Assembly (NCBI RefSeq): GCF_001610895.1
Contig: NZ_CP011273.1
Coordinates: 2,976,001-3,040,000 of the forward strand
Direction: 5' to 3'
Source of the DNA: Planctomyces sp. SH-PL62
GTDB lineage: Bacteria; Planctomycetota; Planctomycetia; Isosphaerales; Isosphaeraceae
DNA: 64,000 nucleotides
Part shown: positions 29,261-40,586 of the stretch, piece after piece
Numbering within the stretch: the first letter of the stretch is position 1
Layout of the letters: each line of letters begins with the position of its first letter
Notes under the pieces: model-generated
What the model was told of the DNA's origin: nothing
Seen by the model: only the letters and a program-made list of their open reading frames with translations
Database searches by the model: none
Made by a program: the position numbers and the translations under genes

Positions 29261-30916
29261 CTAAGTGAGGAGTCTGCAATTTTCTCCAACGGCCGGGACG
29301 GTCGCCGCTCCCGGTTTGGAGTTGGGGCCGGTGAGCACGAGAGCAGCCGGGTCGCGAGCGGGTGGGCGGATGGCTGCACTTTCGCCAGGCGCTTCGTTCC
29401 CATCGGGTGCCGGCTCGTCCGCGGCCGGCTCGAACGGGCCCGGCTCGTCCGCGGCGGGGGGCGGCGGGGCCAGGTCGGGCACGGTCGCGGCCGAAGCGGG
29501 CGAGGGGGGATGTTCGTTGAGTTGACACCCCACGACTCGCTCGAGTTGGGCCAGGGCCCGGCCAAGCTCGGATTCGAAGCGGGCGATCTGGAGTTCGACC
29601 TGGAGCAGCTCTCGCCAGGCGGTGACGAGGGTGAGGAAGTCCAGGTTCCCGGCGCGGTAGTCGCTCGCCGCGATCTCCAGGGCCTGGCGGCTCCGGGGCA
29701 GGTAGCCCGAGCGGAACAGGTCGATGACGTCGCGGCGGGACGTCGCCTCGGCGAGCAGCGACTTCACCGCCTCGTACGTCTCGTCTCGCAGGTTGTCGTA
29801 GCGGCGCGAGTTCGCGACGGCCCGCGCCTCCGCCTCGCGCACCCCGGCCGCGAGCTTGCCGCGGTAGACCGGCAGGTTGAAGCCGACCGTGAGGCCGACC
29901 ATGTCCCGGCCGTCGGCCGTCGGGGACATGGCGTTGTCGCGGGTCAACGTCATGTAATTCAGGCCGACGTCGATGTTCGGGTAATACTTCTTGCGGGCGA
30001 GCTCGACCTCGCGGGTGTCGCGGACGACGGCGGCGAGTCGCCCCTGGAGTTCGGGACGGGCGACGACCGCGAGGCGGTAGAGCCGATCGACCTGGGCGGG
30101 GACGTCGGCGGTGGGGACCGTGGGCAGGGTGCGGAAAGCCGTCTCGGGGCTCACGTGGAGCTGACGAGCCAGGGCGGCGCGGGCCTCGGCGATCCCCTGG
30201 CGCGCCGTCACCAGCTCGCTCTCGACGTCGGTCACGACGTTCTCGGCCCGGAGCACGTCCTGCTGGCTGGTGTTCCCGGTCGTGAAGCGGACGCGGGCGA
30301 TCTCGACGAAGTCGACCGCGAGCTTGCGGTTCTCGGCCAGGATCTGCTCGGATCGCTGGGCGAAGTAGAGGTCGTAGTAGGCCCGCTTCACCTCGGCGAC
30401 CACCTCGAGCTGGGCCGCGGCGAGTTCCATCAGGGCGACCTTGACCTCCTGCTCGGCCGCCTCCCCGCGGAGCCGGAGCGTCCCGAACCAGGGGAACTGC
30501 TGGCTGATTATCATCTGATAGGGGTTGTAGCCCATCAGCGAGTACTGGGGGCCGTTCATCGGGAAGGGCCAGATGGTGTTCTCGACCATCGGGTCTTCCA
30601 GCGCGGTCACCTGCGGGATGCGCTCCTTCATCGCGAGCACGTTGAAGCGGGCGGCCTGCACGCCGCGGTTCTCGGCCAGGGCCCGGCGGATGAAGGCGTC
30701 GACCGGCTGCTCGCCGGCGAATTCCGGCGGGGCGGGGACCGGGTCGAGCGCCACGGCCATCGGCTCGTCGGGGTGAATTGGGCCGGGAGGATGCTTGACG
30801 GCGCTCTGGAGGTTCCGTTCGACCTCGACGTACGCCGGGAGCGGCCCGACCTGGGCGCAGCCGAGCATGCCGAGCACGAAGGGAGTCATCGTCCTTAAGG
30901 TCCAGCGTCGTGTCAT
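29261..30916 (-). CDS. TolC/CusC-like outer membrane efflux protein
   Basis: A 551-residue outer-membrane channel of a tripartite metal efflux system. A short signal (MTRRWTLRTMTPFVLGMLGC) ends in a lipobox-like Cys. Two repeats of the OEP fold follow, each with long helices: NRGVQAARFNVLAMKERI and ARPELQGRLAAVVRDTREVELARKKYYP, with the conserved LYFAQRSEQILAENRKLAVD region. The last ~75 residues are Pro/Ala/Glu-rich and probably disordered. ATG 30916 is chosen because AAGGA lies six bases upstream; ATG 30922 would put that site immediately at the start. It is divergent from the CusB/CusA genes. Confidence 0.9.
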   Translation of the reverse strand: MTRRWTLRTMTPFVLGMLGCAQVGPLPAYVEVERNLQSAVKHPPGPIHPDEPMAVALDPVPAPPEFAGEQPVDAFIRRALAENRGVQAARFNVLAMKERIPQVTALEDPMVENTIWPFPMNGPQYSLMGYNPYQMIISQQFPWFGTLRLRGEAAEQEVKVALMELAAAQLEVVAEVKRAYYDLYFAQRSEQILAENRKLAVDFVEIARVRFTTGNTSQQDVLRAENVVTDVESELVTARQGIAEARAALARQLHVSPETAFRTLPTVPTADVPAQVDRLYRLAVVARPELQGRLAAVVRDTREVELARKKYYPNIDVGLNYMTLTRDNAMSPTADGRDMVGLTVGFNLPVYRGKLAAGVREAEARAVANSRRYDNLRDETYEAVKSLLAEATSRRDVIDLFRSGYLPRSRQALEIAASDYRAGNLDFLTLVTAWRELLQVELQIARFESELGRALAQLERVVGCQLNEHPPSPASAATVPDLAPPPPAADEPGPFEPAADEPAPDGNEAPGESAAIRPPARDPAALVLTGPNSKPGAATVPAVGENCRLLT

Positions 30917-31243
30917 CGCCATTCCTTCGCGAGACGCCGCAGTGCGCACCGTCGGCGCAGTCGGCAATTGCCGGTTCGATGAGCCCGAAGCTAACATCGG
31001 CGCCGACCACGGTTCGGATTCGGCGAAACAGTTTCGTCGTAGCGATTTTCCGGAGGGCCCGTCGCTCGCCTCGGGTCAGGCACCTCCCCCCCGTCGATGC
31101 GAACCGAAGCCCTCCCGGCGTCGTGGCCGTGCCGGTCGGCATCCCGCTCCGGCCCCTTTGTCTCTGTTCCGAGCTAGCCGAAGGGAGGCCCGCGAGGTAT
31201 AATTTGGGGTGTCGTTAGGAAACGTTCATTTCGATATGCTGGT
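30917..31243. other. Divergent promoter region of the efflux locus
   Basis: About 330 bases separating the minus-strand TolC-like gene from the plus-strand Cys-rich protein gene. It must hold promoters for both, probably metal-responsive, but I could not identify a CueR- or CopY-type dyad. Confidence 0.5.
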
Positions 31244-31711
31244 GTGATGATGCCCACGACCCGTCGACAACTCCGTCCCTTCCTGGTCGCCCTGCTGGCG
31301 ATCGCGGGGATGGTGTCGGCGTCGGCCTGCACGACAAAGCCCGCATCGGCCTCCCGCACCTGCTGCGCGAGTCGGCCGTCGTCCGAGTGCGACTGCTGCG
31401 CCCCGGGCGAGATGCGGCCTTCTTCGGGTGTTGCGTCCCGCGCCGATGCGGCGATCGTCACCCCTGCCGCCCGCGCGATCGACCAGGCCCCTTCGGCCTC
31501 GTGCGAATGCCGGGCGAGCGAGCCCGCCGCTCCCTCCGAGCGTCCGGCCCAGCGGACCTCCCCCAACCACTCCGAGATCCAGGACCTCGGCCTTTCGGTC
31601 GCCGTCGCCCCGGCGCTCAAGTCCTCGCCCTCGCTCGCACGTCTGCTCTTACCGAACGAGAGCCCGCCCGGGTCACCGCTCTATCTCCGCACCTCCCGCC
31701 TGCTGATTTGA
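31244..31711 (+). CDS. Small Cys-rich secreted protein leading the efflux operon
   Basis: A 155-residue protein with a signal peptide (PFLVALLAIAGMVSASAC, Cys possibly a lipidation site). Clustered Cys residues follow: TCCASRPSSECDCCAPGE and later CECRAS. The rest is Ser/Ala/Pro-rich and the C-terminus ends LYLRTSRLLI. Clustered Cys outside the membrane would suit binding of soft metals such as copper or silver. Three ATG codons occur in a row at the start. Its position immediately upstream of the CusB-like gene supports a role in metal handling; no family name is assigned. Confidence 0.6.
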   Translation: MMMPTTRRQLRPFLVALLAIAGMVSASACTTKPASASRTCCASRPSSECDCCAPGEMRPSSGVASRADAAIVTPAARAIDQAPSASCECRASEPAAPSERPAQRTSPNHSEIQDLGLSVAVAPALKSSPSLARLLLPNESPPGSPLYLRTSRLLI

Positions 31712-31874: not shown

Positions 31875-33596
31875 ATGTCCGTCCATGGACCTTCCCGTCC
31901 CTCCGATCCGGGTGCGCCCGAGCCTGCCGTCACTCCTGCGCCCGTCCCGGCCGGAGGGACGCCGCCGACCCGCTGGCAGAGGTTCCGCATGGTGGTGAAG
32001 GTCGTCGAGCTGAGGCTCCGCTTCGTCGCCCTGATGGCCGCCACCGGCCTCGTGTTCGCTTACTGGGACACGCTCTGGAATCACTACGAGAAGTGGACGC
32101 GCCCGCCGGGCGAGATCCACGCGGCGGCGTCGGACACCGAGCACTTCTGCCCGATGCACCCGACGGTCGTCCAGTCGGAGCCGGGCTCGTGCCCGATCTG
32201 CGGGATGCCGCTCTCGAAGCGGAAGAAGGGGGAGGCCGAGGGGCTCCCCGAGGGGGTGCTCTCGCGAGTCACCCTGGAACCGTACCGGGTGGCCCAGGCC
32301 GGGGTGCGGACGAGCGAGGTGGGCTACGCCCCGCTCTCGGAGACGGTCACGACCGTCGGCTCGGTCGAGGTGGACGAGCGGCAGTTGAAGCGCATCTCCT
32401 CGAAGACCAAGGGCATGTCCCGGGTCGAGAAGCTGTTCGTGAACTACACGGGCACGAAGGTGGAGGCCGGAGAACCGCTCGCCGAACTCTACAGTCCCGA
32501 GCTCTACCAGGCGATCCAGGAGCTGCTCCTCGCCCAGCGGTCGACTCGCGAGCGGCCTCGGGCCCAGACCGCGCTGGGCCGCTCGGTCCTGGGCGACCCG
32601 GACGAACTGGTCGCCCTGTCCCGGGAGAAGCTCCGGCTCTGGGGCGTCGCCCCGGCGCAGATCGAGCAGATCCTCCGCGAGGGGAAGGCCGAATTCAAGC
32701 TGCCGATCCTTTCCCCGATCGGCGGGGTGCTCATCCGGAAGGGCGTGGTCGAGGGGGATTACGTCGCCGAGGGCCAGGCGATGTTCGAGGTCGCCGACCT
32801 GACGCACGTCTGGGTCAAGGCGCAGGTCTATGAGAACCAGTTCGCGCTGGTGCGGGTGGGCCAGGCGGTGGAGGCGACCGTCGAGGCGTACCCCGGCGAG
32901 GTCTTCTCGGGGAAGGTCGCCTTCGTCGACCCGGTCTTGAATCCGGCGACCCGCACCGTCACCGTCCGCTACGACCTTGAGAACGCGGACCTCCGCCTCC
33001 GTCCGGGGATGTTCGCGACGGTGACGCTCAAGACCCCGGTCGCGGACACCCCGGCCTTCCTCGCCCGGCGGACGTCGATCCCGGCCGCGGGCGCGGCCCG
33101 CACGGCGAGCCTCACCGTCGAGCAGCAGAAGCTCTGCCTCGTGACGCACGCCAAGCTCGGCTCGATGGGCGAGCCGGTCCCGATCGAGGTCGAGGGGCGG
33201 AAGCTCTGGATGTGCTGCGTGGGCTGCGAGCCGAAGCTCAAGGGGGAGCCCGCGAAGTACCTCGCCCGGCTCGCGCCGGCCCCGAAGGACGAGGTCCTCA
33301 CCGTGCCCGAATCGGCGGTCATCGACACCGGGACCAGGAAAGTCGTCTACGTCGAGGCGGAGCCCGGCGTCTTCGAGGGTCGCGAGGTCGTCCTCGGGCC
33401 CGTCTCCGGCGACCGCTACCCGGTGCTCGACGGCCTCTCCCCCGGGGAGACGGTGGCGGCCCAGGGCTCGTTCCTGATCGACGCCGAGAACCGGCTGAAT
33501 CCGAAGGCGGCGGGCTCGCAAGGCGACTCGCCCCGGCCCGACGCCGAAGCCACCCGGTCGGCCGCGGCGCACGCCGCGGCCGGCCACCGGCATTGA
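31875..33596 (+). CDS. cusB: CusB-like RND adaptor with two metal-binding inserts
   Basis: A 573-residue periplasmic adaptor of a heavy-metal RND pump. One N-terminal membrane segment lies near residues 50-66. A heavy-metal-binding domain follows near residues 90-112 (FCPMHPTVVQSEPGSCPICGMPL). Then come the barrel-sandwich and hairpin regions of the HlyD/CusB family (VGSVEVDERQLKRISSKTKGM, LPILSPIGGVLIRKGVVEGDYV, DLTHVWVKAQVYENQ). Near residues 418-465 a YHS-like insertion carries KLCLVTHAKLG and WMCCVGCEPK. The C-terminus ends in a His-rich AAAGHRH. The gene stops 13 bases before cusA. The symbol is by homology of architecture. Confidence 0.92.
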   Translation: MSVHGPSRPSDPGAPEPAVTPAPVPAGGTPPTRWQRFRMVVKVVELRLRFVALMAATGLVFAYWDTLWNHYEKWTRPPGEIHAAASDTEHFCPMHPTVVQSEPGSCPICGMPLSKRKKGEAEGLPEGVLSRVTLEPYRVAQAGVRTSEVGYAPLSETVTTVGSVEVDERQLKRISSKTKGMSRVEKLFVNYTGTKVEAGEPLAELYSPELYQAIQELLLAQRSTRERPRAQTALGRSVLGDPDELVALSREKLRLWGVAPAQIEQILREGKAEFKLPILSPIGGVLIRKGVVEGDYVAEGQAMFEVADLTHVWVKAQVYENQFALVRVGQAVEATVEAYPGEVFSGKVAFVDPVLNPATRTVTVRYDLENADLRLRPGMFATVTLKTPVADTPAFLARRTSIPAAGAARTASLTVEQQKLCLVTHAKLGSMGEPVPIEVEGRKLWMCCVGCEPKLKGEPAKYLARLAPAPKDEVLTVPESAVIDTGTRKVVYVEAEPGVFEGREVVLGPVSGDRYPVLDGLSPGETVAAQGSFLIDAENRLNPKAAGSQGDSPRPDAEATRSAAAHAAAGHRH

Positions 33597-33609: not shown

Positions 33610-36600
33610 ATGATCGAGAACATCGTCGAGTGGTCGATCCGGAACCGCTTCCTCGTCATCCTCGCCTCCATCGCGGTCGGGATCGCGGGCTTCCGCGCGC
33701 TGATGACCATGCCCGTGGACGCCATCCCGGACCAGTCCGAGAACCAGGTGATCGTCTTCACCGACTGGATGGGCCGGAGCCCCCAGGAGATCGAGGACCA
33801 GGTCACCTACCCGCTGACGACGAAGCTCCAGGGCCTGGCGGGGGTCAAGGTGGTCCGCTCGTCGAGCGAGTTCAACTTCTCGATGGTCAACGTCATCTTC
33901 GACGACTCGACCGACTACTACTTCGCCCGCCAGCGCGTGCTCGAACGGCTCGCGACCGTCGCCCCCGAACTCCCCCAGGGCGTGACCCCGTACATGGCGC
34001 CCGACGCCACGGCCGTGGGCCAGATCTTCTGGTACACCGTCGAGGGGGAGGGGACCGACCTCGGCGAGCTACGCGCCATCCAGGACTGGTACGTCCGCTA
34101 CCAGCTCAACTCCGTCCCCGGCGTGGCCGAAGTCGCGTCGGTGGGGGGCGCCCCGCGCGAGTACCAGATCGACCTCGACCCCAACAAGCTCCGCTCCTAC
34201 GGGATCAGCCTGGGCGAGGTCTACTCGGCCGTCCAGCGCTCGAACTCCGCCGTCGGCGGCCGGGTCGTCCACAAGGGGAACGCCGAGTACCTCATCCGCT
34301 CCGTCGGCTGGATCCAGAACCTCGACGACCTGAAGGACACCGTCGTCGCCCAGCGCGGCGGCGTCCCCATAGACCTGAAGACGATCGCCGCCGTCCAGAT
34401 GGGCCCGGGGTTCAAGCGGAGCGTCCTGGAGAAGGACGGCCGGGAAGTCGTCGGCGGCGTGGTGATGATGCGCTTCGGCGAGAACCCGCTCGAAGTGACG
34501 CGGAAGGTGAAGGAGAAGGTCACGACGCTCTCGGCCGGGCTCCCCGAGGGGGTGCGGATCGTGCCGTTTTACGACCGCACGCCGCTCATCAACAAGGCGC
34601 TCGAGACGGTCTCCGACACGGTGAAGGAAGAGATCATCATCTCCACGGTGATGATCGTGCTGATCATGGGGCACCTGGGCGGGGCGTTCGTCGTCTCGAT
34701 CACGCTCCCGCTGGCGATCCTCTTCAGCTTCCTCATGATGAAGATCTTCGGCATCCCCTCGAACATCATGAGCCTGGCGGGGATCGCGATCTCGGTCGGC
34801 ATCCTGGAGGACCAGGCGGTGGTGATGACCGAGAACGCGGCGCACCACCTCACGCGCCGGTTCGGGGACCGCCGAGTCACGGGGAACGTGCTGGACGTCA
34901 TCATCCCGGCCTGCCGCACGGTGGGCCGCCCGATCTTCTTCTCGGTGCTCATCACTATCGTCTCGTTCCTGCCGGTGTTCGCGCTCACCGGCCGCTCGGG
35001 GAAGATGTTCCACCCGCTGGCGTGGACCAAGACGTTCGCGCTGATCGGCGTGGCGGTGCTCGCCATCACGCTCGTCCCGGCGCTCATCCCCATCTTCCTC
35101 AGGGGCCGCATCAAGTCCGAGGACGAGAGCTGGCTGGTCAGGACGATGATCACCATCTTCAAGCCGATGCTCTCCTGGCTGATGGACCGCACCACGCTCG
35201 TCTGCTGGCTGTTCGCCTGCATCCTCGGCGTGGGCTATCTCGCCTCGACCCGGCTCGGCAGCGAGTTCATGCCCCCCCTGGACGAGGGCTCGATCCTCGA
35301 CATGCCGACGAGCGTCCCGCGGATGTCGGTCACCCAGGCGACCCAGGACCTGAAGGCGCGGGACGCGGTGCTCCGCGGCTTCCCCGAGGTACTGATGGTG
35401 GTCGGCAAGGCGGGCCGGGCGGAGACCGCGACCGACCCGTCGCCGCTCGACATGGTGGAGACCATCATCAATCTCCATGACCGCGAACTCTGGCCGAAGC
35501 GGAAGCTCGAGTTCAACGACGCCCTGATCCAGACTCAGGCCGCGCTGGCGGCGCTCGAGGCCGGGGGCGTCCTCAAGGCCCCGGCGACGAAGGAGGAGCG
35601 GGAGGCCTTCCTGAACGAGGCGGCGATGGAAGTCGTCGTCTGGGTCGACGCCTCGCTGCGGGAGTTGGCGCTCATGCGGCTCGAGGAGTACCGCCCGACG
35701 CTCGGGGCCGAGCTCGCGGGCGACGCCGTCGACGAGCTGCTGGCGCGCGTCGACCCGGGACTGGTCCGCCGCAAGCCCACCGCGACCGAGCGGGAGGACC
35801 TCGCGAAGGCGCTCGGCGCCGTCCATGGTGCACGCCTGGCGCTCGAGCCCAGGTTCGACGACGTGACCGATGTGGTCAAGGACGCATCGCGGAGGCTGGT
35901 CGCCTTCGGCGTCCTGGAGGAGCGTCCCGACCTGCTCTCGCCGACCCCGAGCACGTGGGAGCGGGCGACCGCCGCCGTGGGCGAGGTGCTGGGCAGGGAG
36001 AAGGCGACGCTCTTCACGCGAGTGACCGAGAGGCTCGTCGCCGCCCACGAGGAGAAGCTGAAGGAGCGGACGAAGTCGCTCAACTGGGAGCTGTTCGACC
36101 GGGCCGTCGGCACCGGCACCTGGGCCGCGATGGAGGAGCTGACGAAGCGGGCCGGCGAGAAGAAGCTCGCGGCCCGCCAGGCGACCCCGGACGAACTCGA
36201 GGCGCTGCGGGCCTCGCTCGAGAAGCCGTTCTCCGACCGCCTCTTCCTCTGGCGGAAGTCGAAGCAGGACCTCGTCGACGAGATGGGCACGGCGCTCCAG
36301 GTCCCCGGCTGGGGGAACATCTTCACCCAGCCGATCATCAACCGCATCGAGATGCTGGCGACCGGCGTGCGCACGCCGGTCGGCGTGAAGGTTTTCGGGG
36401 ACGACCTCCAGGAGATCCAGCGTGTGAGCCTCGAGATCGCCGACGTGCTCCGCGGCGTGCGGGGCGCGAACGGCGTGGTGCCAGACCAGATCGTCGGCAA
36501 GGGCTACGTCGAGGTGGACATCGACCGCAAGAAGGCGGCCCGCTACGGCATCCAGGTCGGCGACATCCAGGACGTGGTCGAGGTCGCCATGGGCGGCAAG

Positions 36601-37602
36601 CCGCTGACGGTGACCGTCGAGGGACGAAGGCGCTTCCCCGTCCGCGTGCGCTACGCACGCGACTTCCGCACCGACGAGGAGGCGCTCAAGAACACCCTCG
36701 TCGCGGCGCGGGGCGCGACGGGCGCCGCCGGGGCGGATGCGGCCGGCGGGATGGGCATGGGCGGCGGCGCCCCCCCCTCGGCGCCGGACGCGCCGCCGGT
36801 CCAGGTGCCGCTGTCCGAGGTCGCGACGGTCCGCGTCGTCGAGGGGCCGTCGATGATCAAGAGCGAGAACGGGCTCCTCCGCGCCTACGTCCAGCTCACG
36901 GTCACAGGCCGCGACGAGGTCGGTTTCGTCGAGGAGGCGAGGCGGGTCGTCGCCGACGAGGTGAAGCTCCCGGCGGGGATGTACGTCGAGTGGGCGGGGC
37001 AATTCGAAAACGAGCTCAAGACGCGCAAGACCTTGCAACTGGTCTTCCCGGCGGTCATCGCGGTGATCGTGCTGATCCTGTACCTGACCTACAAGAGCTG
37101 GATCGACGCGATGCTCATGATGACGGCCGTGCTCGGCGCGCTCGCCGGGGGGGCCATGTTCCAGTGGCTCTTCGGCTTCAATTTCTCGGTCGCGGTCTGG
37201 GTGGGCTACATCGCCTGCTTCGGCATGGCGACCGAGACCGGCATCGTGATGCTCGTGTATCTCCGGGAGGCCATCGCCGAGCGCGGCGGGCTCGAGGGCA
37301 TCGGCTCCGTCGAGGAGCTCAAGGAAGCCATCCTCGAAGGGGCCATCCACCGCCTCCGCCCGAAGCTGCTCACGGAGGGGACGACGATCATCTCGATCGC
37401 TCCCATGCTCTGGGCGAGCGGCGTCGGCTCCGAGGTCATCCGGCCGATGGCCGCGCCGGTGCTCGGCGGGCTGCTGATCGCCGACGAGGTCATCGACATC
37501 TTCCTCCCGGTCCTCTACTTCGCCGTGAAGAAGTGGCAGTGGCGGAAGATCCACCACGTGGGACTTTTCGAGCCGAACAATCGGGTGGCCGTCGCGACCT
37601 GA
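33610..37602 (+). CDS. cusA: CusA/CzcA-family heavy-metal RND pump with a large insertion
   Basis: A 1330-residue inner-membrane proton-driven pump, well above the usual ~1050 residues. The N-terminus (MIENIVEWSIRNRFLVILAS), the periplasmic TDWMGRSPQEIEDQVTYPL and the proton-relay region GILEDQAVVMTENA are typical. Three Met residues equivalent to the CusA copper/silver site are present: M565 (LDMPTS), M615 (LDMVET) and M915 (IEMLATG). About 245 extra residues (roughly 635-878), helical and charged, lie between the second and third. A second short Gly/Ala/Met-rich insert occurs near 1033-1060. The Met pattern favours Cu(I)/Ag(I) over Zn/Co. Confidence 0.95.
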   Translation: MIENIVEWSIRNRFLVILASIAVGIAGFRALMTMPVDAIPDQSENQVIVFTDWMGRSPQEIEDQVTYPLTTKLQGLAGVKVVRSSSEFNFSMVNVIFDDSTDYYFARQRVLERLATVAPELPQGVTPYMAPDATAVGQIFWYTVEGEGTDLGELRAIQDWYVRYQLNSVPGVAEVASVGGAPREYQIDLDPNKLRSYGISLGEVYSAVQRSNSAVGGRVVHKGNAEYLIRSVGWIQNLDDLKDTVVAQRGGVPIDLKTIAAVQMGPGFKRSVLEKDGREVVGGVVMMRFGENPLEVTRKVKEKVTTLSAGLPEGVRIVPFYDRTPLINKALETVSDTVKEEIIISTVMIVLIMGHLGGAFVVSITLPLAILFSFLMMKIFGIPSNIMSLAGIAISVGILEDQAVVMTENAAHHLTRRFGDRRVTGNVLDVIIPACRTVGRPIFFSVLITIVSFLPVFALTGRSGKMFHPLAWTKTFALIGVAVLAITLVPALIPIFLRGRIKSEDESWLVRTMITIFKPMLSWLMDRTTLVCWLFACILGVGYLASTRLGSEFMPPLDEGSILDMPTSVPRMSVTQATQDLKARDAVLRGFPEVLMVVGKAGRAETATDPSPLDMVETIINLHDRELWPKRKLEFNDALIQTQAALAALEAGGVLKAPATKEEREAFLNEAAMEVVVWVDASLRELALMRLEEYRPTLGAELAGDAVDELLARVDPGLVRRKPTATEREDLAKALGAVHGARLALEPRFDDVTDVVKDASRRLVAFGVLEERPDLLSPTPSTWERATAAVGEVLGREKATLFTRVTERLVAAHEEKLKERTKSLNWELFDRAVGTGTWAAMEELTKRAGEKKLAARQATPDELEALRASLEKPFSDRLFLWRKSKQDLVDEMGTALQVPGWGNIFTQPIINRIEMLATGVRTPVGVKVFGDDLQEIQRVSLEIADVLRGVRGANGVVPDQIVGKGYVEVDIDRKKAARYGIQVGDIQDVVEVAMGGKPLTVTVEGRRRFPVRVRYARDFRTDEEALKNTLVAARGATGAAGADAAGGMGMGGGAPPSAPDAPPVQVPLSEVATVRVVEGPSMIKSENGLLRAYVQLTVTGRDEVGFVEEARRVVADEVKLPAGMYVEWAGQFENELKTRKTLQLVFPAVIAVIVLILYLTYKSWIDAMLMMTAVLGALAGGAMFQWLFGFNFSVAVWVGYIACFGMATETGIVMLVYLREAIAERGGLEGIGSVEELKEAILEGAIHRLRPKLLTEGTTIISIAPMLWASGVGSEVIRPMAAPVLGGLLIADEVIDIFLPVLYFAVKKWQWRKIHHVGLFEPNNRVAVAT

Positions 37603-37664
37603 AACCTCACGGCACCGTCGGCCGAGTGACACGCTCCCTCTTTCCTCATTCAGAAAGGTCCGTG

Positions 37665-38816
37665 ATGAATCGAAGCAACTTGCGAGCCGGAATTCTGCTC
37701 GGCGTCCTCGCCTCTCCGTTCGGGCTCCTCTCCGGAGCGACGGCGAGCGAGCCGGTGCGGGTCGCCGCGAGCGACGGGGCCGACCGGGACGCGAAACAGC
37801 CCCAGGTCGCGGTGGATGCGCGTGGGCGAATCTACGTCACCTTCGGCCGGGGGGGCACGGTCCGGCTCGCCGCCTCGACGGACGGCGGGAAGACGTTCGA
37901 CGAGAACACCGTCGGTTCCGTCGGCGCGCTCGCGCTCGGCATGCGTCGCGGGCCGCGCGTCACCGCCACGGACGGCTCGGTCGTCGTCACGGCGATCGGC
38001 GGGAAGGAAGGGAAAGGCCGAGACGGCGACGTGCTCGCCTGGCGCTCGCAGGACGGCGGGAAGACCTGGGCCGGGCCGAGCCGGGTGAATGCGGTCGAAG
38101 GCTCCGCCCGCGAGGGGCTCCACGGCATGGCCGCCGCTCCCGACGGGAAGGTCTTCTGCACCTGGCTCGACCTCCGGAGCGGAAAGATGGAAGTCTACGG
38201 CTCGCTCTCGAAGGACGGCGGAGCGACCTGGGAGCCCGACGCCCTGGTCTACCGCTCGCCGGACGGGAGCGTCTGCGAGTGCTGCCATCCCTCGGCGGCC
38301 TTCGGCCCCGACGGCACGCTCCACGTCATGTGGCGAAACTCGTTGAAGGGGGCGCGCGATCTCTACATCACCAACTCCTCCGACGGCGGAAAGTCCTTCG
38401 GTCCGGCGGAGAAACTCGGTCGGGGGAGCTGGCCGCTCAACGCTTGCCCGATGGACGGCGGGGCGGTCGCCGCGGGACCCGAGGGCCGGGTCGAGACGGT
38501 GTGGATGCGGGCCGGGGCGATGTTCGCGGCGAGGCCGGGCGAAGCCGAGCGGTCGCTCGGTCGCGGGGTCCAGGGCTGGGCCGCGTTCGGCGCCGACGGG
38601 CCGTACTCGGTCTGGCTCGAGGAGCGGCCGGGCAAGCTCCTCGCACTCACGCCCGCTGCGGACTCGCCGCTGATCCTCGCCGAACGAGCGAACGATCCGG
38701 TGGTCGCCGCCGCGCCGAACGGCCGCGGTCCCGTCGTCGTCGCCTGGGAAGACAAGGCGGACGGCGGCATCCTCGCCCACGTGTTCACGCCGAAAGCGGA
38801 GGAGGCCCCTCGCTGA
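37665..38816 (+). CDS. Exported BNR/sialidase-like propeller protein with CxCC motif
   Basis: A 383-residue secreted protein with a cleavable-looking signal (LRAGILLGVLASPFGLLSGATA). It contains several BNR/Asp-box repeats (STDGGKTF, SQDGGKTW, SKDGGATW, SSDGGKSF) that build a beta-propeller as in sialidases. Sialidase catalytic residues are not recognisable. A CECCHPSAAFGPDG segment near residue 203 and a later ACPMDGG supply Cys/His residues that could bind metal. AAAGG lies six bases before the ATG. Being the last gene after cusA suggests a metal-related periplasmic role. Confidence 0.85.
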   Translation: MNRSNLRAGILLGVLASPFGLLSGATASEPVRVAASDGADRDAKQPQVAVDARGRIYVTFGRGGTVRLAASTDGGKTFDENTVGSVGALALGMRRGPRVTATDGSVVVTAIGGKEGKGRDGDVLAWRSQDGGKTWAGPSRVNAVEGSAREGLHGMAAAPDGKVFCTWLDLRSGKMEVYGSLSKDGGATWEPDALVYRSPDGSVCECCHPSAAFGPDGTLHVMWRNSLKGARDLYITNSSDGGKSFGPAEKLGRGSWPLNACPMDGGAVAAGPEGRVETVWMRAGAMFAARPGEAERSLGRGVQGWAAFGADGPYSVWLEERPGKLLALTPAADSPLILAERANDPVVAAAPNGRGPVVVAWEDKADGGILAHVFTPKAEEAPR

Positions 38817-39110
38817 CCGGATCGCGCCCCCGCGCGAGCGTCGTCTGGACGCGGCGCGGGGAGATCCGGGAGGTGCCGAACGGCGGCCGTCGTCCCGGGA
38901 GGGGAGGCTCGCCAGGTGTGATCCTCCGGGCCGGGCTCCGGTGCGGCCCACCGTCCCGGCCTCCTGGATCGAGGCCGCGAGAGAGGTCCTCGTTGCGTAA
39001 TTGAGCCCCGCACGAGGATGCTCGCCGCGGCCGAGTTCGAGGAGGTCGGGCGGTGGGTCGCACCCGGGCCCGTCCGGATGTCCCCAACTGAGAGTGAGAG
39101 CGGATTCGAC

Positions 39111-40586
39111 ATGACGCTGCGATACAAGTTCGTCCTGCCGGTCAACGTCATCCTGGTGCTGGTCCTCGGCGCCTCGCTCGCCTGGGAGTGGCGGCGCCAG
39201 GAGGCGACGGGGCTGCTGCTCCTCCGCTCTCGGCTCGACGAAGAGGCCCGCTTCGTGCATGCGGCGCACGTCACGTTCGGGGCGTCGCCGCGCTTCCAGG
39301 CGTTCCTCGCCCGGTTCTGCCACGCATTCGACCCCTCCGCATCGCCCGAACACCAGGTGGCGCTGCTCGACGAGGACGGCCGGGTGGCGGCCGAAGCCGC
39401 CGAGCATGCACGCCGGCCGATGGACGTCCGCCGGCTCGCCGCCGCCGGAGACGGGTTCCAGACGCGCGAGCATGACGGCGACACGTTCCTCGTCCGGATC
39501 TCGGACGTCGGCAAGGAGCGGGTGGTCGTCGCCGAGTCGACGCGTGCGGTGCGTGAGCACGTGAGGGCGAACCTCCGGCGGCAGGCGGTCTGGTTCCTCG
39601 GGGCCGGGGTCCTCCTCCTGGGCGCGGTGAACGTCGTCATGCGCCGTGCGGTGCTCCGCCCGATCCGGCGCATCTCCCGGGCCGTGCGACAACTCGAACG
39701 CGGGCGGCTCGGGGTCGAGGTCGCCTCGCCGAACGGAGATGAGCTGGGGGCGCTCGCCCGGCAGTTCAACGCCATGTCCCGCACCCTCGCGGACCGGGCG
39801 GAGGACGATCGGCGTGAGATGGAGACGGCCCGCCGGGTCCAGGCGCATCTCCTGCCGCCGCAGAAGCTCCGGCTCGGCTGCGTGGAGGCCGCCGGGCGTT
39901 GCCTCCCCACGGGTCCGGTGGGGGGCGATCTCTACGACGTCCAACTGCTTCCCGACGGTCGCGTCGGCGTGCTCGTCGTCGACATGTCCGGCCACAACGT
40001 CGCCGCGGCGCTCCATACGGCGATGGTGCGGTCGATCGTCTGGCGCGAGGCTGCAGATGCCGACGGGCCCGGCGAGATCCTCGCCCGGCTCAACGAGCGG
40101 CTCTGTCGCGACCTCCCGGAGGAGCACTTCGCCACCGCGTTCTACGCCTCGTTCGACCCGTGGACCGGGTGCCTCCGCTACGCGAACGCCGGACACCCGC
40201 CGGCCCTGCTGCGGCACCCGGCGGGGCCTATCCGCGAGCTGGGGCCGACGATGCCGCTCCTCGGCATCCTCCCCGACACGCCCCCGACCGACGAGACCGT
40301 GGACCTCGAGCCCGGCTCGCGCCTCCTCGCCTATTCGGACGGCCTCGTCGAGGTCGCCGACTCGTCGGGTCGGATTTGGGGCGGGGCGGAGCTGGAGGCG
40401 ATCCTCTCGGCGCATGAGGACGCGACGCTCGACGACCTGGTCGCACGCCTCTTCAAACGCCGGGAGGAGGTCGCCGCCTGGAACTCGCCCCAGGACGATG
40501 TGACCGTGGTCTTCATCGAGTACCAGCCGTCGGCGTCGGGACACCACACCGCGACGGCCGAGGCCCAATCCGGGTGGAACCGGTGA
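39111..40586 (+). CDS. Membrane SpoIIE-type protein phosphatase with HAMP domain
   Basis: A 491-residue sensor phosphatase. A membrane segment at residues 7-27 and another near 158-178 enclose an extracytoplasmic sensing region of about 130 residues. A HAMP domain follows (RPIRRISRAVRQLERGRLGVEV, then ELGALARQFNAMSRTLADRA). The C-terminal PP2C/SpoIIE domain (about 240-475) has VGGDLYDVQLLPDGRVGVLVVD, a metal-binding DMSGHNVAAAL and YSDGLVEVADSSG. Such enzymes dephosphorylate anti-anti-sigma factors; none is encoded nearby. The start at 39111 is preferred over ATGs at 39018 and 39078, which add residues without membrane or domain character. Confidence 0.9.
   Translation: MTLRYKFVLPVNVILVLVLGASLAWEWRRQEATGLLLLRSRLDEEARFVHAAHVTFGASPRFQAFLARFCHAFDPSASPEHQVALLDEDGRVAAEAAEHARRPMDVRRLAAAGDGFQTREHDGDTFLVRISDVGKERVVVAESTRAVREHVRANLRRQAVWFLGAGVLLLGAVNVVMRRAVLRPIRRISRAVRQLERGRLGVEVASPNGDELGALARQFNAMSRTLADRAEDDRREMETARRVQAHLLPPQKLRLGCVEAAGRCLPTGPVGGDLYDVQLLPDGRVGVLVVDMSGHNVAAALHTAMVRSIVWREAADADGPGEILARLNERLCRDLPEEHFATAFYASFDPWTGCLRYANAGHPPALLRHPAGPIRELGPTMPLLGILPDTPPTDETVDLEPGSRLLAYSDGLVEVADSSGRIWGGAELEAILSAHEDATLDDLVARLFKRREEVAAWNSPQDDVTVVFIEYQPSASGHHTATAEAQSGWNR

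Follow-up and report, generated by a model that had tools for sequence, protein, structure and literature searches.

The question raised by this locus is what purpose an additional domain of roughly 250 residues, predicted to be helical, serves in a pump that otherwise resembles CusA, the copper/silver exporter of E. coli. The window analysed is a stretch of 64,000 nucleotides from Planctomyces sp. SH-PL62 (NCBI RefSeq assembly GCF_001610895.1, contig NZ_CP011273.1, positions 2,976,001 to 3,040,000 of the forward strand), in which the cusA-like gene (33610-37602, + strand) is a single uninterrupted frame of 1330 residues. Sequence comparison with related loci establishes that the insert is real, clade-wide and under constraint, and that it lies in the porter subdomain PC1 of pumps that are in other respects normal for the Cu(I)/Ag(I) type. 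As to its role, we tentatively favor a rigid docking arm for the metal-loaded adaptor CusB, from which Cu(I) would be handed into the cleft, although we would put this somewhat below an even chance.

Family model and residues mark the pump as CusA-type, with Cu(I)/Ag(I) as its predicted substrates. It scores 1000.1 bits against the CusA/CzcA family model TIGR00914 (curated cut-off, 701.45), matches PF00873 in Pfam, and finds E. coli CusA as its best sequence match in the PDB (E 1.9e-234); the core of its AlphaFold2 (AF2) model fits CusA structure 3k07 with a TM score of 0.83 by target length. Residues 1-629, 887-1028, and 1064-1311 align with the E. coli protein. The metal-site methionines that the initial annotation took to be kept, M565, M615, and M915, do fall on E. 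coli M573, M623, and M672, and E617 aligns with E625, the acidic residue near the metal; D401, E1209, and K1252, counted along the alignments, stand opposite the proton-relay residues D405, E939, and K984 (roles of these residues as given in PMC8092243). Since triad, E617, and relay residues all align, the exporter core looks intact. The loci of relatives were the best 80 of 589 from a contig scan, and the pump alignment holds 78 of these 80, the window, and five paralogs (L076, with a split frame, and L090, a pump fragment, were left out). Methionine occupies all three triad positions in 75 of the 78 loci, the other three ending before the third position; this count is biased, because one of the two search patterns contains M615. 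A search with the insert alone, which gave 24 places, of which 20 regions were taken and 19 aligned with the window, is free of that bias, and in all 20 insert-bearing rows so found (window included) the triad is entirely methionine.

The window pump thus shares with E. coli CusA the fold, the Met triad, the acidic residue by the metal, the D/E/K relay, and nearby adaptor and outer-membrane factor (OMF) genes, but differs in having about 256 residues where CusA has about five, and a 36-residue Gly/Met loop where CusA has about eight. A search with residues 556-947 opens a gap that sets window residues 630-885 opposite five E. coli residues; approximately 250 residues are without counterpart, and alignment resumes at 886/887. 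The initial annotation had placed the extra helical block at residues 635-878 of the porter region: extra, helical, and in PC1 beside an intact metal site it is, but those limits were slightly narrow, the insert running from about 630 to 886. In relatives a loop of 5-6 residues stands in its place. Of the other RND (resistance-nodulation-division) pumps encoded in this genome, the five closest (~33-36% identical) have 6, 25, 6, 6, and 6 residues at the site, and none has the Met triad; a profile of inserts gives one match in this genome, so that only the Met-triad pump bears the insert.

The insert is confidently predicted to form an antiparallel helical stalk, with helices of 53 and 50 residues, topped by a helical tip. 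AF2 modeled residues 618-897 with a mean predicted local distance difference test score (pLDDT) of 93.8 and a predicted TM score (pTM) of 0.85, and residues 1-1200 with values of 84.8 and 0.79; both models show base helices at 635-651 and 860-877 and tip helices at 725-745, 749-765, and 782-793. Mean pairwise identity is 29-40% in four stalk stretches, 64% in the N-terminal base (628-634), and 24% in the tip. The two halves of the insert likely descend from an old internal duplication: HHalign of residues 628-722 against 742-856 (95 columns, 18% identity) gives a probability of 88 and a score of 38.1, compared with 11.2 for a reversed half, 23.5 for the best of 40 block-shuffles, and 13.9 for the best of 60 column-shuffles, a score that helical periodicity may inflate. 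The case rests mainly on this profile comparison, because an ungapped self-comparison is barely significant (best 7.3 vs. a maximum of 6.8 in 100 shuffles). Capture of a known domain was considered and dropped: the insert had no Pfam match up to E 10, and no match was convincing among PDB sequences (lowest E 0.34 with the single sequence as query and 0.017 with the profile, the latter covering part of a MarR regulator), in Foldseek (best E 0.16, ClyA, TM 0.16), or in VIA [best Z 5.7, TRPM3, root-mean-square deviation 7.3 over 133 aligned residues, a level called common for helical models]. These negatives cover Pfam, PDB, Foldseek, and VIA, NCBIfam and PHROGs not having been scanned with the insert alone, and a new fold is unproven.

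Related CusA proteins, when aligned, share the position of the insert across 30 rows of one clade. The length of the site is 6 residues in Acidobacteria, Verrucomicrobia, Bacteroidota, Gallionella, others, and the planctomycete loci L101, L107, and L127; 33 in L089 (Brocadia) and L093; 132-146 in L063, L069, L071, and L074; 187-214 in L065, L077, L079, and L091; 255-302 in 22 rows, the window counted; and 364 in L086. In a core-only tree of 80 rows, built without the insert and loop columns and omitting the truncated pumps L060, L072, L085, and L114, the 30 rows with an insert of at least 100 residues make up one side of a branch with an SH-aLRT (Shimodaira-Hasegawa-like approximate likelihood ratio test) support of 100, corresponding to one state change, and L089/L093 are their sister with a support of 99; the tree is a quick one under a simple model, without bootstrap, and carries a long-branch warning that includes L089 and its neighbor. 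The stalk is kept in 30/30 clade rows, and the tip varies, measuring 106-126 residues in 23 rows and 0-16 in seven, with at least five state changes. Among the best 80 of 589, the closest relatives with a name belong to Isosphaeraceae and further planctomycete metagenome-assembled genomes (MAGs). Across 392 genomes sampled from the phylum-level group to which the window belongs, with 5-6 candidate places scored per genome so that counts are lower bounds, the insert as query matched at least 20 and a profile of 29 inserts at least 23 (own genome included in both; G137 and G154 are weak partial matches). The profile matched 39 of the 45 genomes of the window's family (own included) and 5 of 39 in the phylum-level group of a Wallbacteria MAG, and these five include the L069 and L071 genomes, which had pointed to that group; tblastn of a plasmid collection with the insert gave no match. 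Tall and tip-less forms occur together in several family genomes, e.g., G440, G446, and G452, which give full-length profile matches plus paired matches at positions ~1-85 and 195-300. The genome of L053 (G395) has three stalk pumps, one of them tip-less, and a second CusA-like pump without a large insert adjoins the stalk pump at two loci (L061:10585-13383 and L066:3-2303). At the stalk insertion point, the pump of the Brocadia-type sister locus (L089:3405-6620) has a mostly hydrophobic loop of 33 residues.

Ratios of nonsynonymous to synonymous substitution (dN/dS, Nei-Gojobori), measurable in four of seven pairs, were 0.60 in the insert vs. 0.28 in core residues 1-628 for window/L053, 0.19 vs. 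0.045 for L069/L071, 0.17 vs. 0.10 for L077/L079, and 0.24 vs. 0.115 for L061/L086; the inserts of L078/L080 and L058/L059 were saturated, and L082/L087 had only six codons there. A frameshift, which the initial annotation had named as a possible artifact, is ruled out, as is misassembly, by the continuous frame, by 29 other clade rows, from many species, that have an insert of 132-364 residues at this position, and by dN/dS below 1 in all four measurable pairs. The same ratios bear on the view that the insert is a tolerated decoration of little function, retained since its removal would unfold PC1. Its faster evolution than the core and its wide range of lengths speak for that view, but the ratios still lie below 1, the state changes once on the tree and all 30 rows of the clade have the stalk, and the predicted fold is confident and regular; we regard it as unlikely.

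The insertion point is itself unusual. The standard porter domain has the order b1-a1-b2-b3-a-b4, and PC1 is described as continuous in fold in both AcrB and CusA; insertions are said to be restricted to few points, mostly between b2 and b3 (PMC8277102). In the 1-1200 model, b2 spans residues 594-602, b3 615-622 (12 residues between them), and a2 885-895, strand and helix labels being assigned here; the insert thus follows b3 and precedes a2. Sections 48-50 of this broad 2021 review (PMC8277102) list no such site. Among the titles and abstract openings listed by searches of the open-licence PMC literature, one of which listed 15 of 761 papers, none describes such an insert, full texts being outside that scope. 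SecDF, also a relative within RND, resembles the window pump in that the periplasmic domain (PD) fold is interrupted at an unusual point, but its extra insertion is between a2 and b4 (Figure 25 legend of PMC8277102). HpnN (HAE-3) likewise has helical inserts without known relatives within its porter-domain folds, but in HpnN each half has one, between b2 and b3, and the substrate is lipid (same review); in the window pump, residues 1-629 have no large insert, and the single insert follows b3 in the C-terminal half. In simulations of E. coli CusA, the separation of N651 and R705 marks cleft opening (PMC8092243). N651 is eight residues past the insertion point, counted on the alignment, and would lie ~12 Angstrom along the helix from it; by analogy, the stalk would stand beside the cleft mouth, with its root where the helix carrying the PC1 cleft-opening marker begins.

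The insert also recalls those of MmpL4/MmpL5 and other cluster I MmpLs, RND pumps with a helical hairpin-like insert of ~200 residues in the second periplasmic domain (PD2). In MmpL5, a 196-residue insertion is predicted to form an antiparallel coiled-coil tube, and the pump does not function once it is deleted (PMC12501195); helical inserts can thus be indispensable to an RND pump. On this model, the three stalks of the trimer would join into a helical tube passing substrate onward, and the similar length and kind of the MmpL5 insert are in its favor. But the MmpL inserts lie between b2 and b3 (PMC8277102), a placement that the PD2 insertion of the window pump does not share, and the substrate class is another; the root would be at the peripheral cleft, as judged from E. 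coli; the conserved hydrophobic positions, 11/42 in stalk helix A and 9/35 in helix B, would suffice for a hairpin core and seem meager for a six-helix barrel; and with an adaptor gene before the pump and an OMF gene divergent upstream, a separate conduit probably exists already. We consider a conduit quite improbable. Matches among NCBIfam models up to E 0.001 comprise 12 families, none named MmpL (an HAE3 model is weak, E 8.4e-4). Because the insertion point differs, MmpL5 is an analogue rather than a family in which to file the pump.

The docking arm that we tentatively prefer would work as follows. The stalk would hold a periplasmic partner, the first candidate being the operon's own CusB with its metal-binding motifs; Cu(I) bound there would be handed from CusB straight into the cleft, whose opening may be coupled to adaptor contact. 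The stalk would bear the main contact, with the tip an optional extension. In favor of this reading are the intact metal-site and relay residues, the place of all stalk rows on one side of a single branch, the constancy of the stalk while the tip comes and goes, its better conservation than that of the tip, the confident fold, the nearness of the root to the cleft-opening marker, and the Cys-rich adaptor junctions described below. The route of Cu+ is said to run from CusF by way of CusB to CusA (PMC8277102). A broader and slightly more doubtful proposal is that these pumps form a distinct Cu(I)/Ag(I) RND class, in which a self-contained, duplicated stalk at an unlisted porter-fold site grips the metal modules of the adaptor beside the cleft and feeds or gates metal entry.

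A direct role in metal binding, as in the metal-collecting module that the initial annotation envisaged, finds little in the insert itself: its 257 residues contain 0 Cys, 2 His, and 3 Met, and the inserts of 29 rows contain 0-2, 0-12, and 0-10, respectively, so that such a role is unsupported for the window protein. His-rich loops do occur within the inserts of a side branch (L068, L077, L079, and L091; weaker in L073), and a Met-rich loop lies elsewhere in the pump, but we judge this explanation very improbable. Alternatively, the arm could bind some component of the envelope, such as peptidoglycan, or simply space the pump in the periplasm, with no part in metal transfer. Its presence in most genomes of the family, the lower conservation of the tip than of the stalk, and the same poverty in metal ligands would suit an anchor or spacer; against it are the probable position of the root beside the cleft and the restriction of the insert, in the window's genome, to the Met-triad pump, the five closest other RND pumps lacking both, and we think it unlikely.

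The adaptor also bears on the docking arm. A CusB-type adaptor gene and an OMF gene lie alongside the pump gene, and the adaptor scores 116.5 bits with the NCBIfam CusB model NF007303, below the cut-off of 390. An adaptor junction with at least three Cys was found in 15 of 31 stalk loci (window included), 2/2 sister loci, and 0/39 insert-free loci, and an HMBD-like motif anywhere in the adaptor in 25/31, 2/2, and 10/39. The adaptor of each locus was the best match to the window's rather than the adjacent gene, and some rows are partial; four loci of unclear pump status (L072, L076, L085, and L090) were omitted, L060 had no adaptor match, and L114, whose insert is cut at 182 residues, was counted as a stalk locus. 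Tip state showed no clear tie to adaptor type when judged by eye. Adaptor hairpin medians, 55 in the 31 stalk loci vs. 67 in 45 others (four of unclear pump status, with partial rows), were not used.

Several points weigh against the docking of CusB. The pairing of stalk and Cys-rich junction is not obligatory, as 16/31 stalk loci lack such a junction, nor is their association independent evidence, since both traits occur in one lineage and the stalk apparently has a single origin. In six insert-free loci (L084, L096, L097, L104, L106, and L119), the best-match adaptor lies on the downstream side and is perhaps not the partner of the pump. Parts of the C-terminal base of the stalk are conserved no better than the tip (851-859, 19%; 860-877, 25%), and the AF2 models, made with the pump chain alone, give neither the direction of the stalk nor its contacts.

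The handover of periplasmic copper from adaptor or chaperone to an RND pump is, in our judgement, an open question, and a lineage with an extra arm by the cleft mouth and many Cys-rich adaptors amounts to a natural experiment on it. With such an arm beside the metal-entry mouth common to a branch of pumps found mainly in planctomycetes, metal feeding of the mouth becomes testable, and tall and short forms of the stalk side by side in several genomes are ready-made comparisons.

The smaller Gly/Met-rich insert that had been noticed near residue 1045 was found as a loop of 36 residues (1029-1064) vs. nine in most insert-free relatives, with pLDDT <50 at 1036-1060. Loops of at least 20 residues at this position (32 rows, counted without the four outermost residues on either side) contain 6.7% Met and 17.8% Gly vs. 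2.8 and 7.7% elsewhere; they occur in 24/30 stalk rows and also in seven insert-free rows, so that the loop is a trait separate from the stalk. Coordinates of all features are collected in Table 1.

Table 1. Features of the pump, its insert, and the adjoining efflux genes (positions in the window).
Feature	Position	Strand	Evidence
cusA-like gene, Cu(I)/Ag(I)-type HME-RND permease, 1330 aa	33610..37602	+	TIGR00914, PF00873, PDB match
Insert, residues 630-886, predicted helical stalk domain between PC1 strand b3 (615-622) and helix a2 (885-895)	35497..36267	+	Alignments, AF2
Long stalk helix A, residues 661-713 (predicted)	35590..35748	+	Both AF2 models
Tip module, residues 703-815	35716..36054	+	Alignment of stalk rows
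Long stalk helix B, residues 801-850, LNWELFD motif (predicted)	36010..36159	+	Both AF2 models, A3 alignment
M565 (E. coli M573)	35302..35304	+	Alignment count
M615 (E. coli M623)	35452..35454	+	Alignment count
M915 (E. coli M672)	36352..36354	+	Alignment count
Gly/Met-rich loop, residues 1029-1064, mostly predicted disordered	36694..36801	+	Alignment, AF2
cusB-like adaptor gene, 13 bases before cusA	31875..33596	+	HlyD_D23 E 6.5e-75, HMBD, CusB_dom_1
HMBD motif of adaptor, residues 92-113	32148..32213	+	PF19335 E 6.1e-9
Adaptor junction, residues 402-473, HlyD_D23 to CusB_dom_1, four Cys	33078..33293	+	Domain matches
cusC-like outer-membrane factor gene, divergent	29261..30997	-	PF02321 E 4.5e-41

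Two adaptors of relatives carry further repeats. That of L053 (L053:4005-5990) carries a tandem pair of TRASH/YHS-like Cys units at its junction, against one unit in the window's adaptor, and matches the TRASH model there; that of the Brocadia-type sister locus (L089:870-2981) has five HMBD stretches. Downstream of cusA, a BNR-repeat protein (37650-38816, +) and a HAMP-SpoIIE phosphatase (39018-40586, +) are encoded. Between cusC and cusB lies a small Cys-rich open reading frame (31244-31711, +) with a hydrophobic N-terminus and the motifs CC, CDCC, and CEC, for which Pfam gave no match up to E 0.01; its product is possibly a copper-binding periplasmic protein, to judge by these motifs, and relatives are found at L053:3343-3888 (41%), just upstream of the adaptor of that locus, and at L090:3379-4086 (37%).

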